Positions 22,840 to 36,296 of a DNA stretch of 37,537 bases are shown here, piece by piece. The position numbers and the translations under genes were made by a program. Below the pieces are notes generated by a model. The model searched no databases and was not told where the DNA came from. It saw only the letters and a list, made by a program, of their open reading frames with translations. The stretch comes from an uncultured Bacillota bacterium (GTDB lineage Bacteria; Bacillota_I; Bacilli_A; Erysipelotrichales; Erysipelotrichaceae). The DNA is taken from the NCBI GenBank assembly GCA_900319675.1, contig ONPK01000006.1:1-37537 (forward strand), in the 5' to 3' direction. Position 1 is the stretch's first letter, and each line of letters opens with the position of its first letter.

Positions 22840-25254
22840 TTTTAGTAATTTGGGAGAATTATAGGGAGGATATTCTATGAAACGTCTCTTATCATTAATG
22901 CTCGCTGCAGTAATGATGGTTTCATCATTGACCGTTACTCATGCAGAGTCAACGGAAAATCCGGAAAACTATCCTCCTGTAGAACAGACAAATGACCGTG
23001 AGGAAGTCGATCCATCCACGGTTAGAAAGCCAAAAGCTGGTCTGTATGCAGGAAAACAGCGGGAAACAGTCAGAAATGATGAGGATGCAGCAACTGTCAT
23101 TTATGGTGATGACGATGTTGTGCGTGTATCTATCCAGCTCGAAACCCCATCCACTTTGGATGCAGGTTATTCAGTAGAAGATATTGCCAACAACAGCAGC
23201 GCCATGAATTACCGTGAAGGGCTGCAGAATCAGCAAAGGAACGTTGAAAGTTCTATCAACAGGATAGGCGTCGACATTGATGTTGTCTGGAATCTTACAT
23301 TGGCTGCCAACATTATTTCAGCAGATGTAAAGTATGGTGACATCAGCAAGATTGAAAGACTTTATAACGTTAAGAAGGTTTTCGTTGAAAACTATTATGA
23401 ACAGATGAGGTCCGGTGACGAGCCTAATACAAGCTTTACCACCAAAGAGATGGTATACGCTACACAGGCTTGGGCAAACGGTTATACCGGAGCAGGAACA
23501 AAGGTTGCCATTATTGACACGGGTACAAACGTCAACCATGCTTCCTTTGATGCTGAAGCTCTGGAATATGCTCTGACACAGGAAGGCAAGTCATTAAGTG
23601 ACTATGGTCTTCTGACAAATATGATATCGATCACAGTAATGATGATGCCTCTGAACATGGCTCACATGTTGCAGGTATTGCCGCAGCCAACAGATACGTA
23701 TCTGATGGTAACGGCGGATTTGTGGATGCAGCATCAACAGTATACGCCGTAGGTGTTGCACCTGATGCACAGATCATTACCATGAAGGTATTTGGCAAGG
23801 GCGGCGGAGCTTATGACTCTGACTACATGGCAGCAATTGAAGATGCCATCGTCTTAGGCGCAGATTCAATTAACCTTTCATTAGGTTCAGCTAACCCAGG
23901 AATGGCTTATTCTGATGAATATCAGGATATCATGGATGGATTATCAGGAAAGGGCGCCGTAGTTGTCATGTCAGCAGGTAACTCATACAGCTGGAACAGC
24001 ACTGTATGGCCATATGGAGCAGAAACAGAAGATGAATCAGATGACATTACTTTCCCATATCCTGGATACATGTATGTAGAAGATGTCAGTTTTGATACAG
24101 TAGGATCTCCGGGATCATTCCATAACTCTTTAACTGTTGCCTCAGCAGACAATGTCGGCATTACCGGCATGCCTCTGATCTTTGATGGCGCAGTAAATGC
24201 ATTCTACAACGAAACAGAATCAAATGGTGCCAGAATGGTCAGCATCGCAGACACCTATGATTATGTATACATTGATGGCGTAGGCGAAGCAGATGAATAT
24301 GAGAAAGTAAATGCTGAGATCAGTCTTGAAGGGAAGATCGTTATCGTTAATCGTGGCGAGATCTCTTTCTATGTCAAAGGTAATAATGCCATTAATTATA
24401 ATCCGGCAGCTGTGGTCGTTGCCAATAACGATAAGGGATCTCTTGGTATGAACCTTACCGGTTATACCGGCATATTCCCGATGGTACTCATCACTCTTGA
24501 TGCAGCTAAGCAGATCAAGAATTCAGAACCAAAGAACATTGGCGGTTATGATGTTTATACTGGTAAAGTTGAAGTAACTGACTACAACATTACTCAGCTC
24601 AATGGCAGTGTTTCAGAAGCTACAGTAAGTGATTTCAGTTCATGGGGTGTTCCAGGTTCACTTACCCTTAAGCCTGAGATAGTTGCTCCTGGCGGAGACA
24701 TCTTCTCAGTAAATGGTTTCACAGATGATGACTATGAGTTAATGAGCGGCACCTCAATGGCAGCACCACACGTAACAGGAATGGCTGCCTTACTTGCACA
24801 GTATGTAAAGGAAAACGGCTTAGCCAAGTGGACTGATGGAAATGCTCGTACGCTCATCAACAGCCTGTTAATGTCTACAGCTTTACCAATGATGGACCCG
24901 ACAGATGGCGGAGATTACTATTATCCTGTATTACAGCAGGGTGCTGGTTTAGGAAACGTATACGCTGCTACGCAGGCACTGTCATTCATTATGATGAATG
25001 ATGATGCTACATTGGCATATTCAGACGGTAAGGTAAAGGCTGAACTCGGTGATGATCCTGACCGTGAGGGTAAATACAGCTTCTCATTCAATATTACAAA
25101 CATGAGCGATGATGACCTGGCATATGAATTTGCCACTGATATGTTTACTCAGTTTGCTGATACTGATGGAGAAAAGTGGTATGTGACACCTTATACGGAT
25201 TATCTTGACGCTACAGTTGTTTATGACTGGTCAGATGAAGAAGTAGAAGGACAC

Positions 25255-25430
25255 GATGTAGATCTTGACGGTGATACAGATTATGATGATGCTCAGGCAT
25301 TGTTAGATTACGTTACTGGCAAGGAAGATGGTAAGGAATGGGATCTTGAAGCCGGTGAGATGGACGAAGTAGAAGGTATTTCTTCTTATGATGCAAAACT
25401 GTTAATTGACTGGCTGGCATCAATGGGTAT
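25255..25430 (+). other. dockerin-like segment inside the S8 protease
   Basis: The first repeat, DVDLDGDTDYDDAQALLDYV, has a complete calcium-loop pattern (acidic at positions 1, 3, 5, 9, 12, Gly at 6) followed by the L..Y helix. The second, EVEGISSYDAKLLIDWLA, keeps the helix but its loop is degenerate. Such pairs are type I dockerins; here it is internal, after the catalytic domain. Confidence 0.6.
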
Positions 25431-28214
25431 CGCTACGGAAGGCCAGATTCTGGTAAGATCTGGAGAAACCAGAAACATTACCGTAACAATTACATTAAAT
25501 GATACAGAGTCAATGGATGAGATCTATCCAAATGGCGCATATATTGAAGGCTTTACATATGTAACATGCGTATCAACCACAGATGATGGTGGATTATTAG
25601 ATGTTTCGCACTCAATTCCAATCTTGGGCTTCTACGGCAATTGGACAGACGCGTCAATGTTTGACAATACGACAATTGATGAAGTTGCATTTGGAACAAA
25701 TGATAAGATACCATACGCTGGTGAATACTATACAAACTACATGACAGTACGTTATGCAGGTGATAAGACTGATTCTATTTTCCTTGGTAACCCTTATGAT
25801 TATTCACTGGAAGATGAATTCCCAGTTGATAGGTTGGCATTAAGCGATGATGTAACAATAAAGAGATTTGAGTATAACCTTATTCGTAATGCTGGAACAT
25901 TAGGACTGGCAGCTGTAAAGGTTGATGAAAATGGTGATCCTGTTGAAACAGCATTTACTGGAGAACTTAAGCAAAACGCTGAAAGTGCCTTCTATCATGT
26001 TAATGAAGGACGCTGGCATGATGGCATCGGCAGAGTAAAGGATAACGTAAAAGTCAGAAATTTCGGATTGTCTGAAGACGACAGATTTATCCTTGGCGTT
26101 TATGCTGTTCCTGAATACAACATCATGAAGGAAAACGGAAACACATCAGGTAACGCTGATGCGGAAACATTCGCTGACATCATTTCAAGCGGTGAACTCG
26201 GAAGAGGCGCTTATACAGGTTATACATTTACGCTTGATAACACAGCTCCTGTTATTGACAATGTCACTGTTGATCAGGAAGCAGGCACAGTGACTGTTAC
26301 ATTAAGTGATAATAACTATGTTGCATTAGTAGAAATATTAGACTCAAAGGGCAACATCATTTATGATTACGCATTGCCTGAACAGTCTAAGGCAAACGAG
26401 AAAATCGAGCATGTATTTGAACTTGATGAGGAAGTTATTGAAGAAATTCTCAGTACAAATGCCGTTGTTGTATTGGCTGGTGACTACGCAGCTAATGAAT
26501 CAGCAGAACTCATAAAGATCGATCCGACAAAGCCGGTTCTTGACCTGATTCCGATTTACAGACTGACAGATGAACTTGTTCCAGGTAAAGAGTATATCAT
26601 TGCTCACACTAACGAACCTGGATACGCAGCAGTAGCGTATGGCTATGGTGATTTTTATCCTGTCTTTGTTGAAATTGCTGAAGTTCTTGAAGACGAAGAA
26701 GGACCATATATTATTGCGGAAGATAATGCATATGTCTGGTATGCTGAGCCACTGTTTGGCGAGGACTACGGACCAGCATTTATTAACAAAGATAACGGTT
26801 TGGTAATCGGTTTAAGCGGCTTGGAGGATGATTCGCCTCTGATCACTGCTGAAGACCCTCGTTATGCATTTGATTTCTATTATTATCCTGATTACTCATT
26901 GTTATACACAAGTTTAGGTCAAGATATATATTCTGTAGGCCTAAGTTATGTAGAAGATTATGATGATTATTTCTTCGTATCTTCATCACAGATGTATTCA
27001 GTTTATCTGTATACGTTGGAGTATAAACCTGTAGCGGTTGATACAGAGGCAGCAACTTCAGTTGTGGTTGATCCTTCAGCTGTAACACTTATTAACAAGG
27101 TAAAAGATGAAGCAGACTTAACAGCAACTGTATACCCAATCTATATTGATAACAAGGATGTTACCTGGGAGTCATCTGATCCGGAAGTTGTAACTGTTGA
27201 CGAGAACGGTCATATTACAGCTGTTGGCATAGGTACGGCACAGATTATTGCCACATCAGTTCAAACTCCAAGTGTTTATGGCGCTGCATCTGTAAGTGTT
27301 GTTGATGGTACACCGATGGATGCTGTCGTATATGGCCAGATAGAAACCAAGGAAGGTGTTCAGTTCGTTGAAATAGATCTCAGTGACATGTCATATGACC
27401 CTATTGGCGAAGGTATAACACCATATATCGGCGGTGGACAGGCTGGTCAGTACATTTATGGCAATGATGCAGATTACACATTCTACAGATACATAATTGG
27501 TGAAGATGGAATAGCGTTCGATGGCGGATATGAATATTTCGGTTTAAATGAACCATATTCATACAGAGACGTTGCAAACATTCCGTATTTCAGTATCGGC
27601 GAAGGTGAGGATTTAGTTGAATTTGACTTTGCTGCAGCAGGTATTACTCAGGGAGATTACTTCCTGCTGTTGACAGAAGATGGCGGTGGAAGATTATTTG
27701 ACTTTACCGATGCTGATTATCCGATAATTGCAAATACTTATGTTGGAAGTTTTGAAATGAAGGATGAAGAAACCGGCGAGCCATTCATGACTAACTGGTA
27801 TTACCTGCTGGATGCTGCCGGTGATTTGTACTACTTATATTTCCATGGCACTGAAAGCGGAGGCCTCTCTGGAGACATTGGCCTGATTGGAAATGTTGAC
27901 CTCCTGAGTGTTGGCGATGATCTGACAGCTTATTCAATGACATATACTGATGAACTGTGTGGAACAGACGGCGTATTCATTGCCGACAACACAACAAAGG
28001 GTATCTTCTATGCAGAAATATCCACAAATGAAGAAGGAGAAACTGAAGTTTCAACTACATTCGTTGGAAGAATGGCTGATGTAGATAATCTCACAACACT
28101 CTTTGACCTTGGATACGACGGAATAGAAGAAGCTTCACGTAAGGCTCCGGAATGGATCAGTAATATTAAGGTTAATAAAGATGCCATTCAGTCTGTTGAT
28201 GTTCAGCTCAAGGA

Positions 28215-28560
28215 AAACGAAGCATCAATCGAAGAGCCTGCAATTGAAGAAACTGTAATTGAGGAGGCAACTGTGGAAGAAGTTGCTGAAACCACAGAAG
28301 AAGCAGCTGTCGAGATTGAAGAACCTGCAGAAGCAGTTGAAGAAACGACAGTAGAGGAACCAGTAATTGAAACTGCTGAAGAGCCTGTCGTTGAGACAGA
28401 ATCTGCCGAAGAACCGACAATTGAAGAGGCAGTAGCTGAGGAACCTGAAGTTGAAGAACCAGTTGTTGAAGAACCTGTAACAGAGGAAACTGTTGCTGAA
28501 ACAGAGCCTGTAGCAGAGGAGCCTGCAACTGAAGAATCTGGCGAGACAAATGAAGCTGTT
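28215..28560 (+). repeat. Glu/Val/Pro-rich low-complexity repeat coding region
   Basis: About 115 residues are built from variants of VEEP, IEEP and EETV (for example EEPVVEEPVTEE). It is likely a flexible wall-spanning spacer between the catalytic stalk and the C-terminal anchor. Repeated GAAGAACC-type units at DNA level could make it length-variable. Confidence 0.7.
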
Positions 28561-28564
28561 GGTA

Positions 28565-28910
28565 CTCTGAATGCGGTATGGAATTACTCACCAAAGAACA
28601 TAGTAACAGCGAAGGCGGTAATCAAGACTGAAACTGCAGAAGATGATGGCAGTAAGGTTACCATCACATATACAGAGGATGTTGACGTTACGAATGCACT
28701 CATTACTGTAACCTATGATCCTGAATTGCTGACCTATGTTGAAACCAAGTGCGATCTGAAACACTTCTCAGTAAATCCTGAAGAAGGAGTCATCACATTT
28801 GCATTTGCTTCAGAAGAAGCCGAGTTAAAAGGTAATATCCTGGCTCAGTTCATCTTTGAAGTTGGATGTGAAAATGCTGATGTAACAATTGAAGTCAGTG
28901 AGCGTGATTC
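28565..28910 (+). other. cohesin-like domain near the C-terminus of the S8 protease
   Basis: The segment contains KVTITYTEDVDVTNALITVT, YDPELLTYVE, EGVITFAFASEEAELKGN and ILAQFIFEVG. This matches the order of strands and the YDP.LL and G.I.F.F motifs of cohesin domains. It lies between the spacer and the sorting signal. Assignment rests on pattern recognition only. Confidence 0.5.
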
Positions 28911-29336
28911 TGATCTGGATTTAAGTGAAAAGACTGTTTCAGAAGTTGAAGGCACAGGACATGATTACGGTGAACCTGAATGGATATGGGCAGAAGATTA
29001 CTCTACTGCTACAGCTACATTCACATGTGCTAATAACGAAGAGCATGTACTGGTTGAAAAGGCTGAGGTTTCTGTAGAAAAGGTTGAAGCTACAACAAGC
29101 AAGGAAGGTAAGATCACTTACACAGCCAAGGTAGTAGTTAACGGTAAGGAATACACGGATGTTAAGACCGTTATCCTGCCAAAGACACCTGATACAGGCG
29201 ATCACAGCAACATTGACGGCTGGTACAGAACATTCATGGCAGGAGTTGCCGGAATGTATGTGGCAATCGTACTGCTCAGAAAAGGCAGAAAGGAAACCGC
29301 AGAATAAGCATTATTATATAAATAATGATATAAATG

Positions 29337-29364: not shown

Positions 29365-29492
29365 GGTTTGCCTTTGATGAAGGAAAAAACGGAACGAATC
29401 ATGAAAGTGTGATTATATATCATTATGTTGTATATAAGTATCATTTTGACTGAAGATGCTGTAATCTATTGTCAGAGATAAGGAGTAACAAG

Positions 29493-30563
29493 GTGATTGA
29501 AAGAATACTTTTGACATTACTGGCTGCGGCCATAGGCACATTCATTGCCAGTAAGATCAGGATTCCGGTACCGTTCATGATTGGTGGGATGATCGGATCT
29601 GCCGTATTCAACATAGCTACGGGAATGGCGGCGATGCCTTCGTTTACGAAGACTGTCGTTCAGTCACTTTCTGGTGTCTTCATCGGTCTTTCGCTGAAGA
29701 GAAAGGACATCAGGTCACTTAAGGAACTGGCTGCCCCATTGGCAGTACTCGTTGGCTGCCTTCTGGTATTTACAACCGTAATGGGACTATTATTCCATTA
29801 TGTATTCGGCCTTGATCCGGCTACGGCTTTCCTGGTAGCGATACCGGGAGGTGTTACGGAAATATCCTTGATGTCAACGGATGTAGGGGCAGATCCGGCT
29901 ATTGTTTCATTCATGCAGACATTCAGACTGTTTTCGGTATATCTGATATTCCCGGCTACCATAGCCTACATGAGCAAGCGCTATCCTTCCGAGGAAGCTT
30001 CACACATGGAAGAAGGGATTGATGAGAAAGTTACGACACTGGACAGATTCATTCCTGACAATATGTACCTTAGGCAGATAATGACAGCCATTATAGGTCT
30101 GGCTGGAGGAATACTGGGGAAACTATCCGGCTTGCCATCCGGAACACTTAGCTTTGCGATGATATTTACCATTCTGGCAAATCTCAATTCAACGAAGATA
30201 ACTCTCAAGAGAGAGTACAAGAGATATGTACAGCTGTTCTCCGGTGCTCTGATAGGGGTCTCAATATCAATGGAAACGGTAAGAGGATTTACGAAGATAG
30301 TGTTACCGTCACTGATTCTGATACTGGGATATCTGATTGCCAATTTCATCATCAGTTATCTGATGGCGAAGACCGGCAGGATGGACAGGATCACGGCGAT
30401 GTTTGCCTCGTCACCGGGCGGGGCCAGTGACATGGCGCTGATTGCCAGTGAAATTGGCGGAGATTCACCGAAGATTGCGGTCATGCACATCTTCCGACTT
30501 ATCGCCTGCTATACCATATTCCCGATGCTGGCCAAGATTCTGATAGAATTTGTTACAAAATAA
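29493..30563 (+). CDS. AbrB-family membrane protein (COG3180, membrane AbrB duplication)
   Basis: Start placed at GTG 29493, 7 nt after AAGGAG (29480-29485); the frame from TTG 29469 would include that site. 356 residues and about ten hydrophobic helices. Two repeated halves are visible: RIPVPFMIGGMIGSAVFN and LVAIPGGVTEISLMSTDVGADPAIV in the first, SGLPSGTLSFAMIF and FASSPGGASDMALIASEIGGDSPKIAVMHIFRL in the second (quoted here as the helix-breaking PGG motifs). The family is often annotated as 'putative ammonia monooxygenase', a historical misnomer; it is better seen as a transporter-like membrane protein of unknown substrate. It is monocistronic, with a terminator after it. Confidence 0.83.
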   Translation: MIERILLTLLAAAIGTFIASKIRIPVPFMIGGMIGSAVFNIATGMAAMPSFTKTVVQSLSGVFIGLSLKRKDIRSLKELAAPLAVLVGCLLVFTTVMGLLFHYVFGLDPATAFLVAIPGGVTEISLMSTDVGADPAIVSFMQTFRLFSVYLIFPATIAYMSKRYPSEEASHMEEGIDEKVTTLDRFIPDNMYLRQIMTAIIGLAGGILGKLSGLPSGTLSFAMIFTILANLNSTKITLKREYKRYVQLFSGALIGVSISMETVRGFTKIVLPSLILILGYLIANFIISYLMAKTGRMDRITAMFASSPGGASDMALIASEIGGDSPKIAVMHIFRLIACYTIFPMLAKILIEFVTK

Positions 30564-30566
30564 TGC

Positions 30567-30598
30567 AAAGAACTTATGTGATCATAAGTTCTTTTTTT
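30567..30598 (+). terminator. Rho-independent terminator after the AbrB-family gene
   Basis: AAAGAACTTATG (30567-30578) pairs perfectly with CATAAGTTCTTT (30583-30594) around TGAT, followed by TTTT. Confidence 0.88.
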
Positions 30599-30638
30599 GC
30601 GTGTATGCATATTGAAAAAATGGGTCATTTTAGTGAAA

Positions 30639-30654
30639 ATGAAAATATTTTCAT
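30639..30654. repeat. perfect 16-bp palindrome in the AT-rich opp leader
   Basis: ATGAAAATATTTTCAT is its own reverse complement. It lies about 60-75 bp upstream of the predicted opp -35 box, in an AT-rich stretch with several further GAAAA/TTTTC runs. It is a plausible operator for a dimeric regulator; none is identified. Confidence 0.5.
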
Positions 30655-30714
30655 AAAAAATGAAGAAAAATTGATGTTTTGATGTAAAATTTTCCATTTT
30701 CATCTGAAAAATAG

Positions 30715-30743
30715 TTGATTATTTACATCAATGAGAGTAAAAT
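30715..30743 (+). promoter_or_regulatory. promoter of the opp operon
   Basis: TTGATT (30715-30720) and TAAAAT (30738-30743) are separated by exactly 17 nt. The oppB ATG is at 30792 after GGAAGGAG. No open frame lies between 30599 and 30791. Confidence 0.6.
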
Positions 30744-30791
30744 CTCGATTATAAATGTTTAAAATCATTACGTGTTTGGAAGGAGTAGAGT

Positions 30792-31715
30792 ATGTTAAAG
30801 TACATCTTCAAGAGAATTGTTATAGGAGCTATAACACTTCTCATATTATCTACAATTACATTCTTTGGCGTCAGAGCAATGCCTGGCGATCCTTTTGAAC
30901 AGGATAACAAGGTAATGGCTCCGGAAACATACGAGGCACTCAGGGAAAAGTTCCATCTGGACAAGCCCTTAAGTGAGCAGTACTTGATCTTCCTGAAGAA
31001 TGCCGCAAAGGGTGACTTCGGTGAGTCAATCTCCAAAAAGGGAAAACAGGTTTCTGACATTATCTCCCTTCGTTTCCCTGTAACAGCCAAGTTGGGAGCC
31101 ATCGCCTTCGTAACATCAATGGTCATTGGTCTTACCCTCGGTATCATCGCAGCCCTGGCAAAGGAAAGGTGGGTGAACAGTGTAATCACTGTAGTCACCA
31201 CGCTGGGCGTATCAATGCCGAACTTCCTGTTCGCGCTCATGATCATGATACTGTTTGCGGTAAAACTCAAATGGCTTCCGATCGTTGGACTTAACGGTCC
31301 TCAGTATTACGTCCTGCCTGTTGCGGCACTGTCCCTTGGACCTATATCTTCCGTAACAAGGTTAACAAGAAGCTCCATCAGAGATGTAATGCATGAAGAC
31401 TACATCACCTTATCCCGCAGTAAGGGCAATAAGGAAACCAGAACGATCATTCTTCACGGATTGAAGAACGCACTGCTGCCAGTAATTACCTATTCCGGTC
31501 CGTTATTCGCCGGCATGATCACTGGCTCACTGGTAATTGAGACACTGTTCTCAGTTCCGGGCATCGGTGCTGAATTCACCAACAGTATTACCAACCGTGA
31601 CTATACGCTGGTCATGGGCCTGACAATTCTGTTCGGCGCACTGGTAATCATAATGAATCTCATATCCGACGTAGTAGCTGCTATTGTCGACCCGAGAATC
31701 AAGTTAGGAAAGTAG
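30792..31715 (+). CDS. oppB: oligopeptide ABC transporter permease OppB
   Basis: 307 residues, six predicted membrane helices. The start MLKYIFKRIVIGAITLLILS and the motif RAMPGDPF are typical of OppB/DppB. The EAA loop that docks the ATPases is DYITLSRSKGNKETRTIILH (about 198-217), and the C-terminus contains ETLFSVPGIGAEFTNSI. With OppC it forms the membrane channel for peptides delivered by OppA. First gene of a five-gene operon under a clear promoter; oppC starts 8 nt downstream. Confidence 0.92.
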   Translation: MLKYIFKRIVIGAITLLILSTITFFGVRAMPGDPFEQDNKVMAPETYEALREKFHLDKPLSEQYLIFLKNAAKGDFGESISKKGKQVSDIISLRFPVTAKLGAIAFVTSMVIGLTLGIIAALAKERWVNSVITVVTTLGVSMPNFLFALMIMILFAVKLKWLPIVGLNGPQYYVLPVAALSLGPISSVTRLTRSSIRDVMHEDYITLSRSKGNKETRTIILHGLKNALLPVITYSGPLFAGMITGSLVIETLFSVPGIGAEFTNSITNRDYTLVMGLTILFGALVIIMNLISDVVAAIVDPRIKLGK

Positions 31716-31723
31716 GTGGTTAG

Positions 31724-32650
31724 ATGAGTGAAGCAAAGCTGACATTAAGTGATGATTTATTCGAAAAACTGCCTGAAGAAGAGAAAAACTCTGAATTCAT
31801 AGCGATGGCGCTTAAGACATTCGCCAAGGATGCATGGGACAGATTCAGAAGAAACAAGCTGGCACTGTTCGGCCTGATCTTCTTAACCATCATCATCATT
31901 CTGGCAATAGTCGTGCCAATGGTATCTCCATATCAGTTTGATACCCAGGACATGGCAAACAGAAATGCATTGCCAAGCATGCAGCATCTGTTTGGCACAG
32001 ACAAGCTGGGACGTGACATCTTCGTAAGAGTCATGTACGGTGCCCGTGTATCACTGTCAATCGCCTTTGCGACAGCAGCGATCAACCTGGTCATCGGCGT
32101 ACTGTACGGCGGCATATCAGGCTACGTAGGCGGCAGAGTAGACATGATCATGATGAGAATCATTGACGTAATCTACGCTGTTCCATCACTTATATATATC
32201 GTATTGATCAGATTAGTATTTGGTGACAGCATCGGATCAATGATGCTGGCCATATGTCTTACCAGCTGGATCGGAATGGCCAGACAGGTAAGAGCCCAGC
32301 TGATGTCATTAAAGGAAATGGAATTCTCACTGGCAGCCAAGGTAATCGGCGCCAGCCACAGCCGTATCCTTCTCAGACACCTGGTAGTAAATGCCCTGGG
32401 TCCAATCATCGTCTCTCTGACCATGATGGTACCTGGCGCAATCTTTACAGAAGCTTCATTAAGCTTCGTAGGCATTGGTCTTAACCCGGCAGTACCAAGC
32501 TGGGGCAAGCTGGCAAATGACTGCAGATCGCTGATATTCACTACACCGATCCAGATCATATGGCCGGTAGCCGCCATAAGCCTTACCATTCTGGCCCTCA
32601 ACTTCGTCGGTGACGGCATCGGTGAAGCCTTCCAGGCCAGGACAAGATAG
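31724..32650 (+). CDS. oppC: oligopeptide ABC transporter permease OppC
   Basis: 308 residues. The N-terminal region before the first helix holds the motif WDRFRRNKLALFGLIFL, and HLFGTDKLGRDIFVRVMYGAR is the OppC/DppC hallmark. The EAA loop is EFSLAAKVIGASHSRILLRH, and the C-terminus contains FTEASLSFVGIGLNPAVPSW. AGGTGG precedes the ATG. It is the partner of OppB in the importer channel. Confidence 0.92.
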   Translation: MSEAKLTLSDDLFEKLPEEEKNSEFIAMALKTFAKDAWDRFRRNKLALFGLIFLTIIIILAIVVPMVSPYQFDTQDMANRNALPSMQHLFGTDKLGRDIFVRVMYGARVSLSIAFATAAINLVIGVLYGGISGYVGGRVDMIMMRIIDVIYAVPSLIYIVLIRLVFGDSIGSMMLAICLTSWIGMARQVRAQLMSLKEMEFSLAAKVIGASHSRILLRHLVVNALGPIIVSLTMMVPGAIFTEASLSFVGIGLNPAVPSWGKLANDCRSLIFTTPIQIIWPVAAISLTILALNFVGDGIGEAFQARTR

Positions 32651-32661
32651 GGGGTAGTCAG

Positions 32662-33663
32662 ATGGCACTGTTAGAAGTTAATGATCTCAGAACTGAATTC
32701 AAGACTGATTCTGGAAGAGTACAGGCTGTACGTAATGTTTCCTTCCAGCTGGAACAGGGCGAAGCTCTGGGCGTAGTTGGTGAATCAGGTTCAGGAAAGA
32801 GCCAGATGATGTACTCCATCATCGGACTGCTGGCTGAAAACGGAATCGTTGAAAGCGGCAAGATAATGTTCGACGGCAAGGATATTTCCCCGAGCCAGTT
32901 CGCAAAGAAAAAGGAATACGATGAGTTCATGCGTGAGATCCGCGGCAATTCAATGGCCATGATCTTCCAGGACCCGATGACATTCCTTAACCCGGTATTG
33001 AAAGTAGAAACACAGCTGATCGAGCCAATGCTCAATCATACTGACATGACCAAGCAACAGGCAAGGGAAAGGGCGCTGGACCTGCTTAGAAAGGTTGGCA
33101 TTCCTTCTCCTGAAAAGCGTATCACTCAGTACCCGTTTGAATTCTCAGGCGGCATGAGACAGAGAATCGTAATTGCCATTGCCCTGGCAAATAACCCGAA
33201 GCTGATCATCGCTGATGAACCTACCACAGCCCTGGACGTTACGATTCAGGCGCAGGTTCTGGAACTGATTGATGATCTGAAGCGTGAAAGCAACTCAGCC
33301 ATCATCATGATCACTCATGACCTGGGCGTTGTTGCCAAGCTGTGTGACAGAATTGCCATCATGTATGGAGGTAAGATCGTTGAAATCGGAACGGACAAGG
33401 ACATCTTCTACAATCCGAAGCATCCGTATACGGAAGGACTGTTAAGATGCATATCAAATCCTGAAGATGACGACGAGAAGAGCCTGACTCCGATAGCCGG
33501 TTCTCCACCTGACCTGCTGAATCCTCCAAAGGGATGTCCGTTCGTCGACAGATGTGAGAAGGCAATGAGAGTCTGCAAGGATTACGAACCTGAAGTAACC
33601 GACGTCAGCAAGGGACACCAGTGTGCCTGCTGGCTGTTAGATAGAAGGGCGGTGAAACAATGA
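32662..33663 (+). CDS. oppD: oligopeptide ABC transporter ATP-binding protein OppD
   Basis: 333 residues. Walker A is GESGSGKS (about 39-46), the signature is FSGGMRQRIVIAIALA, Walker B is LIIADEPTTALD and the H-loop is MITHDLGVV. The C-terminal extension with PPKGCPFVDRCEKAMRVC and a final cysteine pair is specific to Opp/Dpp ATPases. The start follows GGGGGT. The stop overlaps the start of oppF by 4 nt (ATGA), so the two ATPases are probably made in equal amounts. Confidence 0.93.
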   Translation: MALLEVNDLRTEFKTDSGRVQAVRNVSFQLEQGEALGVVGESGSGKSQMMYSIIGLLAENGIVESGKIMFDGKDISPSQFAKKKEYDEFMREIRGNSMAMIFQDPMTFLNPVLKVETQLIEPMLNHTDMTKQQARERALDLLRKVGIPSPEKRITQYPFEFSGGMRQRIVIAIALANNPKLIIADEPTTALDVTIQAQVLELIDDLKRESNSAIIMITHDLGVVAKLCDRIAIMYGGKIVEIGTDKDIFYNPKHPYTEGLLRCISNPEDDDEKSLTPIAGSPPDLLNPPKGCPFVDRCEKAMRVCKDYEPEVTDVSKGHQCACWLLDRRAVKQ

Positions 33664-34640
33664 GCGAAGAAAAACCTATTCTGAGCGTCAGAAATCTTAA
33701 GACCTACTTCGATGTTACCAAGGGAATATTTACCAAGAAGCAGATCGTCAAGGCCGTTGATGATGTATCATTCGACGTAATGGAAAATGAGACATTCGGT
33801 CTTGTAGGCGAATCAGGATGCGGCAAGACAACACTTGGCCGTACCATCGTAAAGCTCTATGAACCGGAAAGCGGTTCAATAGAATTCCAGGGCAAGGACA
33901 TTGCCAAACTGCATGGCAAGGAACTCATCAGTTTCCGCAAGGACATGCAGATGATCTTCCAGGATCCATATGCATCTCTCAACCCACGTATGACCGTAGG
34001 CGAGATCATCAAGGAACCGATGATCATTCACAACATCTACAACACGGATGAAGAAAGAGAACAGCGAGTCGTTGAACTGCTGAAGATCGTAGGACTGAAA
34101 CCTGACCATATCAGAAGATATCCTGCTGAATTCTCCGGCGGCCAGAGACAGCGTGTCGGAATTGCCAGAGCACTGGCAGTCAATCCGAAGTTCATCGTCT
34201 GTGACGAACCTATTTCAGCTCTGGACGTATCCATTCAGGCTCAGGTTGTAAACCTGCTGAAGGACATTCAGAAGGAAATGGGATTATCCTACCTGTTCAT
34301 TGCTCATGACCTTTCAATGGTCAAGCACATATCAGACCGTATCGGTGTAATGTACCTGGGTCACCTGGTAGAATGCGGGCCTTCAAATGACGTATATCAC
34401 CGTCCGCTGCACCCATACACAATTGCCTTATTGTCAGCTATTCCGATCCCTGATCCGGACGTAGCCAAGAATAAGCAGAGAATCGTACTTGGCGGAGAAG
34501 TGCCAAGCCCGATCAACCCTCCTGAGGGTTGTCCGTTCTGTACCAGATGCACCAGGGCTACAGAACGATGCCATAAAGAAAGACCTAAACCAATTCAGGT
34601 CGGAACTCGTACAGTTGCATGCCATCTGTATGAAAAGTAA
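33660..34640 (+). CDS. oppF: oligopeptide ABC transporter ATP-binding protein OppF
   Basis: 326 residues. Walker A is GESGCGKTT, the signature is [16 protein letters not shown], Walker B is [12 protein letters not shown] and the H-loop is FIAHDLSMV. The C-terminal domain has [18 protein letters not shown] and ends ACHLYEK. It contains the OppF-type inserted sequence around the ATP site ([20 protein letters not shown]). It is the second ATPase of the importer; oppA follows 18 nt later. Confidence 0.93.
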
Positions 34641-34658
34641 TTAAGAAAGGGGAACTCT

Positions 34659-36296
34659 ATGAATTACAAAAAATTATTAGCATTAGTATTAGCAATTCTG
34701 ATGGCCTTAACACTGACAGCCTGTGGCGGCGGTGGCGGCGGCGGAGACAAACCGAGCGAGCCGACATTCAAGAAGACCTTCACATACTCTGTTGGTGGTG
34801 AACCAACTTACATGGATCCGGCAAGATGTGGTGACTCTGTTACAGCTGAGATCCATAATGAAATCTGGTACCCATTATTCTACTTAACAGAAGATGGCTC
34901 ACCGGCAAAGGGTGACTGTATCGACTATACGATCGATGACAGCGGCACAGTATACACATTCAAGCTTGATCCAAACGCAAAGTGGAGTGACGGTGTTGCT
35001 CTGACAGCTGATCAGTATGTATACGGCATCAAGCGTTGTATCGGCATGGGCTACGAAGATGTAGGCTACCTGACAATGATCACTAACTACATCGTCAATG
35101 CTGAAGCACACGTAGGTGACGCAGTAGCTGACATGGATGACGTAGGTGTAAAGGCTCTTGATGACTACACACTCGAAATCACATTGAATGCAAAGTGCCC
35201 ATTCTTCGTATCATTATTACCGACACAGGTATTCGCTGCAGTACGTTCTGAATTTGCTCCTGAAAAGGATTCAGAGTGGTCAAATACTGTTGGTTATCCG
35301 ACAACTGGTGCATTCTATCCAACAAAGATCGACTCAGCAAGTGAATACATCCTGGAAAAGAACCCATACTTCGCATTAGCTGACCAGGTATACTGCGATA
35401 AGCTCATCGCTAAGATCATGCCTTCAATGGAAGCTAGCCAGATGGCGTTCCAGACAGGTGAAATTGACTACGATACATCTGCAGACTCAAGTGCAACAAA
35501 GGTTGCTGACCTGGCAGACGCAATCGATATTCACGGCAACATCAACTACTACATGAACATCAACTGCTACACATCAAACGAAGCATTACAGAACGTTGAG
35601 ATCCGTCGTGCTCTGCAGTTAGGTATTGACAGAAGTGCATTCGTTACAGCTCTGGATGCCGGCGATGTTTACTATGAATTATACGGCTTCTTACCAGTAG
35701 GCATTCCTGACTTCAAGGGTGACTTCCGTACAAATCAGGATAATGAGCACAAGCTTGTTTACACTGACAAGGAAGCAGCTAAGGCAATCATGGAAAAGTA
35801 CGGCTACGGTCCAAATAACACACTGAAGCTTGAATACTACTACAACCAGAACGCTATGCATGACACAGTATCTGCAGTTATCAAGGAACAGTTAAAGGAC
35901 ATCTACGTTGACGTAACATTAAAGACAGCTGAATTACGTACATTCTTCGATGACAGAAGCTATGGACGTTACGACCTGGCTAGAAATGCCTTCTCAGCTG
36001 ACTACATGGATCCATGGAACTACCTCGAACTGATGGCAATCTACAATGACCCAGAGGGAAGAACATTCTTCGGTGATGAGACATATGACAAGCTGCTGTT
36101 CGAATCTATGGAATTAGAAGGTGAAGCTCGTTTCGCTAAGTTACACGAAGCTGAAACATATGCAATTGAAACAATGTGCTTCAACGTTCCATTATTCGGC
36201 TACGGTTCAGTATCATTACAGAAACCTGGTACAACCGGTGTTATCAATAACCCACAGGCTAACCACATCTTCTGGTTCGTCAAGTGCCCGGAATAA
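34659..36296 (+). CDS. oppA: oligopeptide-binding lipoprotein OppA
   Basis: 545 residues. The signal peptide ends in the lipobox LTAC (Cys 22), so the mature protein is lipid-anchored; a glycine-rich linker follows the cysteine. The SBP_bac_5 (family 5) fold is shown by GGEPTYMDPARCGDSVTAEI, KWSDGVALTADQYVYGIKR, the NVEIRRALQLGIDRSAF helix and the C-terminal FNVPLFGYGSVSLQKPGTTG. It delivers peptides to OppBCDF. It is last in the operon, and its codons are strikingly biased to ACA, TTA and GCT/GCA compared with oppBCDF, a pattern I link to high expression. Confidence 0.92.
   Translation: MNYKKLLALVLAILMALTLTACGGGGGGGDKPSEPTFKKTFTYSVGGEPTYMDPARCGDSVTAEIHNEIWYPLFYLTEDGSPAKGDCIDYTIDDSGTVYTFKLDPNAKWSDGVALTADQYVYGIKRCIGMGYEDVGYLTMITNYIVNAEAHVGDAVADMDDVGVKALDDYTLEITLNAKCPFFVSLLPTQVFAAVRSEFAPEKDSEWSNTVGYPTTGAFYPTKIDSASEYILEKNPYFALADQVYCDKLIAKIMPSMEASQMAFQTGEIDYDTSADSSATKVADLADAIDIHGNINYYMNINCYTSNEALQNVEIRRALQLGIDRSAFVTALDAGDVYYELYGFLPVGIPDFKGDFRTNQDNEHKLVYTDKEAAKAIMEKYGYGPNNTLKLEYYYNQNAMHDTVSAVIKEQLKDIYVDVTLKTAELRTFFDDRSYGRYDLARNAFSADYMDPWNYLELMAIYNDPEGRTFFGDETYDKLLFESMELEGEARFAKLHEAETYAIETMCFNVPLFGYGSVSLQKPGTTGVINNPQANHIFWFVKCPE

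Follow-up and report, generated by a model that had tools for sequence, protein, structure and literature searches.

The window, by which we mean the whole stretch of 37,537 nucleotides that was analysed, carries a gene for an S8 cell-envelope protease in which a dockerin is inserted into the domain that follows the catalytic domain, and in which a cohesin lies close to a predicted sortase-type anchor. Far from being peculiar to one genome, the pair has been kept together in about six genera of Erysipelotrichaceae. The host genome, of which the window is contig C134, has a size of ~1.65 Mb and is ~89% complete, and the protease has matches in Erysipelotrichaceae MAGs from ruminant guts.

Domain layout and the two modules

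The gene belongs to the class of C5a-peptidase-like S8 cell-envelope proteinases, with a PA insertion in the S8 domain and then an Fn3_5 domain. Its features are as follows.

22877..23752, + strand: N-terminal part of the gene, with signal peptide, propeptide and the catalytic Asp codon (23516-23518)
23617..23626, + strand: frame break, from nucleotide alignment with the closest relative (L004) and three-frame translation
23656..24915, + strand: remainder of the S8 protease domain (Pfam Peptidase_S8, 2.9e-31)
23656-23676 and 24748-24771, + strand: catalytic motifs HGSHVAG and GTSMAAPH, the latter with the catalytic Ser (24754-24756)
24289-24516, + strand: PA domain inside the S8 domain (Pfam PA, 9.1e-9)
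25009..25671, + strand: Fn3_5 domain of the C5a-peptidase Fn1 type, divided by the dockerin (Pfam fn3_5 in 28/29 homologues)
25243..25437, + strand: type-I-like dockerin within Fn3_5 (family profile, Pfam in homologues, model helices)
27052..27276, + strand: Big_2 Ig-like domain (Pfam, 3.1e-10)
28213..28551, + strand: linker of ~113 residues rich in Glu, Pro, Val and Thr, directly N-terminal to the cohesin (from sequence)
28615..28947, + strand: cohesin module, a nine-stranded beta sandwich (Pfam, AlphaFold, Foldseek)
28954..29175, + strand: C-terminal GHxYGEPxW domain (from homologues; repeated in other proteins of the family)
29176..29304, + strand: putative sorting signal LPKTPDTGD, membrane segment and positively charged tail (from sequence)

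The long open reading frame (23722-29307) holds the S8 domain with its PA insertion, Fn3_5, Big_2, the Glu/Pro-rich linker and the C-terminal sorting signal. Compared with the PDB, the S8 region matches C5a peptidase and cell-envelope proteinases at ~1e-24, and a Foldseek search with the AlphaFold model of the Fn3/dockerin segment returns SpyCEP and ScpA/ScpB (best 1.2e-8). The linker before the cohesin is conserved in kind in four other genomes (G001, G006, G007 and G023). LPKTPDTGD is a non-canonical LPxTG-like motif, with IPKTVDTGD, SPDTGD and LPPTG as its equivalents among orthologues; the tail ends in KGRK, and the genome encodes one sortase (contig C82, 2.5e-10). With motif, membrane segment, basic tail and sortase all present, the protein is predicted to be sortase-anchored, as the preliminary description of this DNA had proposed. 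Two homologous loci from another genome (L130 and L135, G153) carry C-terminal GKWVRY/GW-type repeats, resembling wall-binding repeats, instead of a sorting signal. Downstream of the protease (29469-36296) we find an AbrB-type membrane protein and then a five-gene oligopeptide/dipeptide ABC transporter, which starts two genes downstream of the protease and is complete (two permeases, two ATPases and SBP_bac_5); this adjoining transporter would fit a peptide-harvesting role of the protease.

A dockerin had been described at 25255-25430, after the subtilisin domain. The interval was right, and the module, which we put at 25243-25437, does lie downstream of S8, but it is inserted inside Fn3_5 rather than simply following the protease domain. 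In the AlphaFold model of this segment (mean pLDDT 86), Fn3 strands are followed by three helices (102-112, 123-126 and 136-148; pLDDT ~93), in the loop-helix-helix-loop-helix fold of the dockerin, and then by the remaining Fn3 strands. Because Fn3 strands flank the dockerin helices, the dockerin sits nested in the Fn3_5 domain, and this is the real surprise of the architecture; exactly the dockerin piece is missing from two homologues (L005 and G048). The nesting rules out a dockerin that is a C-terminal appendage of the protease.

All canonical Ca-ligand positions are present in the first dockerin loop (25255-25290, DVDLDGDTDYDD), and in the second loop (25357-25392, EMDEVEGISSYD) both ligand position 5 and the Gly of position 6 are gone, in keeping with the degenerate second repeat noticed earlier; loop 2 is degenerate in the window clade and canonical in G012. 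Pfam Dockerin_1 (PF00404) gives no match to the window's own copy, but it matches 9 of 11 close homologues (best 1.4e-8) and 16 of about 29 (28-29) homologues in a wider set (best 3.6e-9). The family profile matches the CelS dockerin in the PDB (E = 2.3e-7), and phmmer gives an almost full-length alignment of the window dockerin with that of ScaB (E = 0.03). The homologue matches to Dockerin_1 and the profile match to CelS remove the doubt, and we conclude that the dockerin module is real. Foldseek with the whole Fn3/dockerin segment returned Fn3 matches and none to dockerins.

The cohesin that had been placed before the anchor at 28565-28910 is also real, with 28615-28947 as the better interval. 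Its window copy passes the Pfam Cohesin (PF00963) cut-off (25.1-25.9 bits vs 24.1), and the AlphaFold model, made for the window cohesin with 29 homologues, has the nine-stranded fold, with a pLDDT of ~90 in the strands. Foldseek returns 37 matches to this model at E <= 0.001, and all but 9ifr and 1amx are cohesins or cohesin-holding chains, the best being non-cellulosomal modules of Clostridium perfringens (E = 2e-6). These 35 of 37 matches rule out a cohesin-like Ig domain, and a chance or low-complexity match is ruled out for the modules by their conservation together with the profile and model results. Conservation is lower in the cohesin (61-63%) than in the dockerin (82-85%). The profile searches that the preliminary description recommended therefore succeed on the window copy for Cohesin and only in homologues for Dockerin_1, and the structure prediction it recommended yields both the cohesin sandwich and the dockerin helices.

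Distribution and co-divergence of the pair

We surveyed 273 Erysipelotrichaceae genomes with family profiles for the dockerin and the cohesin. The dockerin profile matches in 31 genomes and the cohesin profile in 33, six genera each, and both modules occur together in 29 [Fisher p ~2e-32, with genomes that are not independent of each other]. For 36 of the 45 dockerin matches a cohesin lies C-terminal to the dockerin in the same open frame, and in 35 of these 36 cases the span from dockerin to cohesin is 837-1239 residues. Among the nine other matches, a wider profile does find a cohesin in both G153 proteins, two G149 contigs stop precisely where the cohesin starts, one (G284) has its cohesin in the next ORF, three (G007, G012 and G192) are truncated by contig ends, and one (G204:C41) has no S8 match; contig ends, frame breaks and profile sensitivity account for most of these exceptions. 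No cohesin match was found in the dockerin-less homologues (L005, G048 and genus g77), and neither the same architecture nor a nested dockerin was found outside Erysipelotrichaceae in samples of 392 genomes from the phylum and 395 from the class. A match in G070 was rejected as an example of the same architecture because the frame that carries its dockerin shows no match to S8. The joint occurrence of both modules in one anchored peptidase had been called unusual, a view that does not stand, given its conservation in several genera of this family and the precedents of ScaO/ScaP discussed below.

The two G149 contigs (L131 on C83 and L132 on C204) both break at the cohesin start, and the shared break point suggests near-identical cohesins common to paralogues. 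At two loci in another genus of the family (L133 at G204:C41 and L134 at G189:C52), the ORF that comes after a dockerin protein encodes three cohesins, an arrangement that is scaffoldin-like.

To compare the divergence of the modules, we used distance matrices for 25 paired proteins, with S8, both Fn3 halves, the middle region and the pre-cohesin region as controls. Of the modules compared, it is the dockerin whose distances follow those of the cohesin most closely [rho 0.72], and given all controls the partial correlation between the two is 0.46, against at most 0.34 for the other modules (Fn3a, the next best, at 0.34) and ~0 for the stretch that immediately precedes the cohesin. In 90% of subsamples the dockerin ranks first among the partners of the cohesin. 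Without the six rows of the window's genus, however, the partial correlation of the dockerin is 0.35 and that of Fn3a 0.39, and because the dockerin then falls below Fn3a we regard the co-divergence as suggestive only in pointing to binding partners. The distance correlation could instead reflect joint shuffling of the modules.

Known systems and possible partners

One cohesin and one dockerin are already known to accompany a peptidase in ScaO/ScaP of Acetivibrio cellulolyticus and Pseudobacteroides cellulosolvens (PMC5590126, PMC3413522), and a figure legend for A. cellulolyticus names S8 (PMC3413522). Compared by description, ScaO/ScaP are like the window protein in that a peptidase shares its chain with just one module of each kind, but they come from cellulosome producers and carry PPC modules, and we did not find sortase anchoring or an Fn3-nested dockerin reported for them. 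In C. perfringens, one GH31 protein carries both a cohesin and a dockerin (PMC12997984). The cohesin X82 and dockerin enzymes of this species (PDB 2jh2, 2vo8, 2w1n) resemble the window protein in being non-cellulosomal, with a single cohesin on the enzyme, and their cohesins are the closest structural match to that of the window; they differ in being glycosidases, with cohesins and dockerins mostly on separate enzymes. The double dockerin dDoc_0689 of a C. thermocellum S8 protease has ScaD, a scaffoldin attached to the cell, as its presumed partner (PMC12484212), and it is similar in that dockerins occur on an S8 protease, whereas there are two of them and no cohesin is reported. The window family profile matches PDB 8x39/8x3a ('Serine protease'), which is probably this same double dockerin. 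The streptococcal C5a peptidase, SpyCEP and lactocepin proteinases have the same order of S8, PA and Fn3_5 and a wall anchor, but neither dockerin nor cohesin. As far as our searches reached, three features are new: that the dockerin is nested in Fn3_5, that a sortase-type anchor lies close to the cohesin, and that the two modules are conserved jointly across the family.

Cohesin-dockerin pairs are known mainly as cellulosome plugs that join different proteins. The explanation that we favour, and to which, as a whole, we give an even chance, starts from a C5a-peptidase/lactocepin-type cell-envelope S8 protease of an Erysipelotrichaceae gut bacterium; its first Fn3 domain has taken in a dockerin, a matching cohesin has been placed between the long linker, acidic and rich in proline, and the signal for wall sorting, and the dockerin would bind the cohesin of the same protein species. 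Binding might occur within one molecule, where it would act as a calcium-dependent latch and bring the protease head back towards the wall stalk, or it might form short homotypic links between neighbours, which would cluster the protease on the wall or retain shed heads. That the Fn3-inserted dockerin and the cohesin are a self-complementary pair, setting the position or clustering of the protease as such a Ca-dependent latch or homotypic linker with no scaffoldin, we propose tentatively. If true, the known uses of the plug would widen to include the self-assembly of surface enzymes in gut bacteria, or their control from within the molecule, and more than 30 natural matched pairs would be available for specificity studies and as orthogonal assembly parts.

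The search for other dockerins in the genome, also recommended earlier, bears on the choice of partner. It gave one further Dockerin_1 match and one further Cohesin match, adjoining on contig C131. This dockerin is C-terminal on a glucosaminidase-like protein (L047, 772-4531 of G000:C131), a label that is a reading of its sequence with no profile result behind it, and the adjoining cohesin protein has a C-terminal membrane segment. Neither module matches the S8-type profiles at 1e-4, and BLAST finds no similarity between the C131 cohesin and the S8 cohesin, and by these profiles the C131 pair appears to be of another type, at its own locus and unrelated to the S8-type pair. Since it is also the only other pair, the S8 dockerin is, by elimination, the most likely partner of the S8 cohesin, and since the single other dockerin is of another type and stands beside its own cohesin, self-association is favoured over a multi-enzyme assembly. 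With two cohesins and two dockerins found in a ~89%-complete genome, there is no cellulosome in the sense of a multi-cohesin scaffoldin with many dockerin CAZymes. The idea in the preliminary description that protease molecules could link to each other thus seems plausible, and its companion, linkage to other dockerin-bearing enzymes, fares worse, as the genome offers one such protein, of a different type and with its own cohesin.

Counted against self-association are the degenerate loop 2 of the window clade, the lower conservation of the cohesin than of the dockerin, and the break of the gene in the window and in its closest relative, which suggests that this species may be able to do without the function. 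We consider it unlikely that the protease cohesin instead captures other dockerin proteins, or that the dockerin binds a separate cohesin protein, in a small non-cellulosomal surface complex like that of C. perfringens or the Limousia mucinolysome. Such assemblies have precedents (PMC12997984, PMC5590126), and the dockerin protein and membrane-segment cohesin protein at C131, with similar sets in relatives, could take part in one; however, they supply a single other dockerin, are dissimilar from the S8-type modules and are already a neighbouring pair. It is more doubtful still that both modules are past binding and are kept as structural insertions for the spacing or stability of a stalked protease. 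The joint presence and absence over about six genera is hard to explain for independent spacers ~1000 residues apart, and the modules co-diverge better than the backbone, although the degeneration of loop 2, the broken gene in two close relatives and a stalk of many beta sandwiches, to which the cohesin fold adds one more, would all be consistent with such a role.

The frame break in this allele

The proposed self-association has to be read together with a frame break that the preliminary description did not mention. Near 23622, 106 nt of the closest relative L004 are absent from the window, a number that is not a multiple of 3, and the N-terminal part follows the frame of intact homologues until ...SDYGLLT (~23622) and is out of frame after it. 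The catalytic Asp (23516) lies before the shift and the catalytic His (23656) after it; as assembled, the downstream ORF is without a signal peptide and without the catalytic Asp. The catalytic Asp-His-Ser are thus not in a single open frame in the window allele, and they are intact in relatives such as G001. L004 itself has an in-frame TAG at ~7750, between Asp and His and in the same stretch as the window deletion. Beyond the breaks, 1861 (window) and 1907 (L004) codons remain open, and dN is well below dS for both modules where dS is computable; the open frames and the low dN imply that the inactivation is recent or an assembly error, and the window allele would be either such an error or a recent pseudogene. 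That the break is real and leaves this species with a pseudogene, the modules mattering in relatives alone, is a serious possibility, if short of an even one, and it is compatible with any other reading of the modules. It accounts for two separate lesions, the deletion and the TAG, between the same two catalytic residues, but both sequences are metagenome assemblies, the codons still open would require an inactivation that is very recent or an artefact, and the gene is intact in G001 and others, where, for this reason, the function of the architecture is better judged.

The last 350 bp of the gene (28954-29307), comprising the GHxYGEP domain and the anchor, are nearly identical in DNA between the window and L004 [dS 0.07-0.21, vs >1.1 elsewhere where computable], which we read as recent recombination or module exchange.
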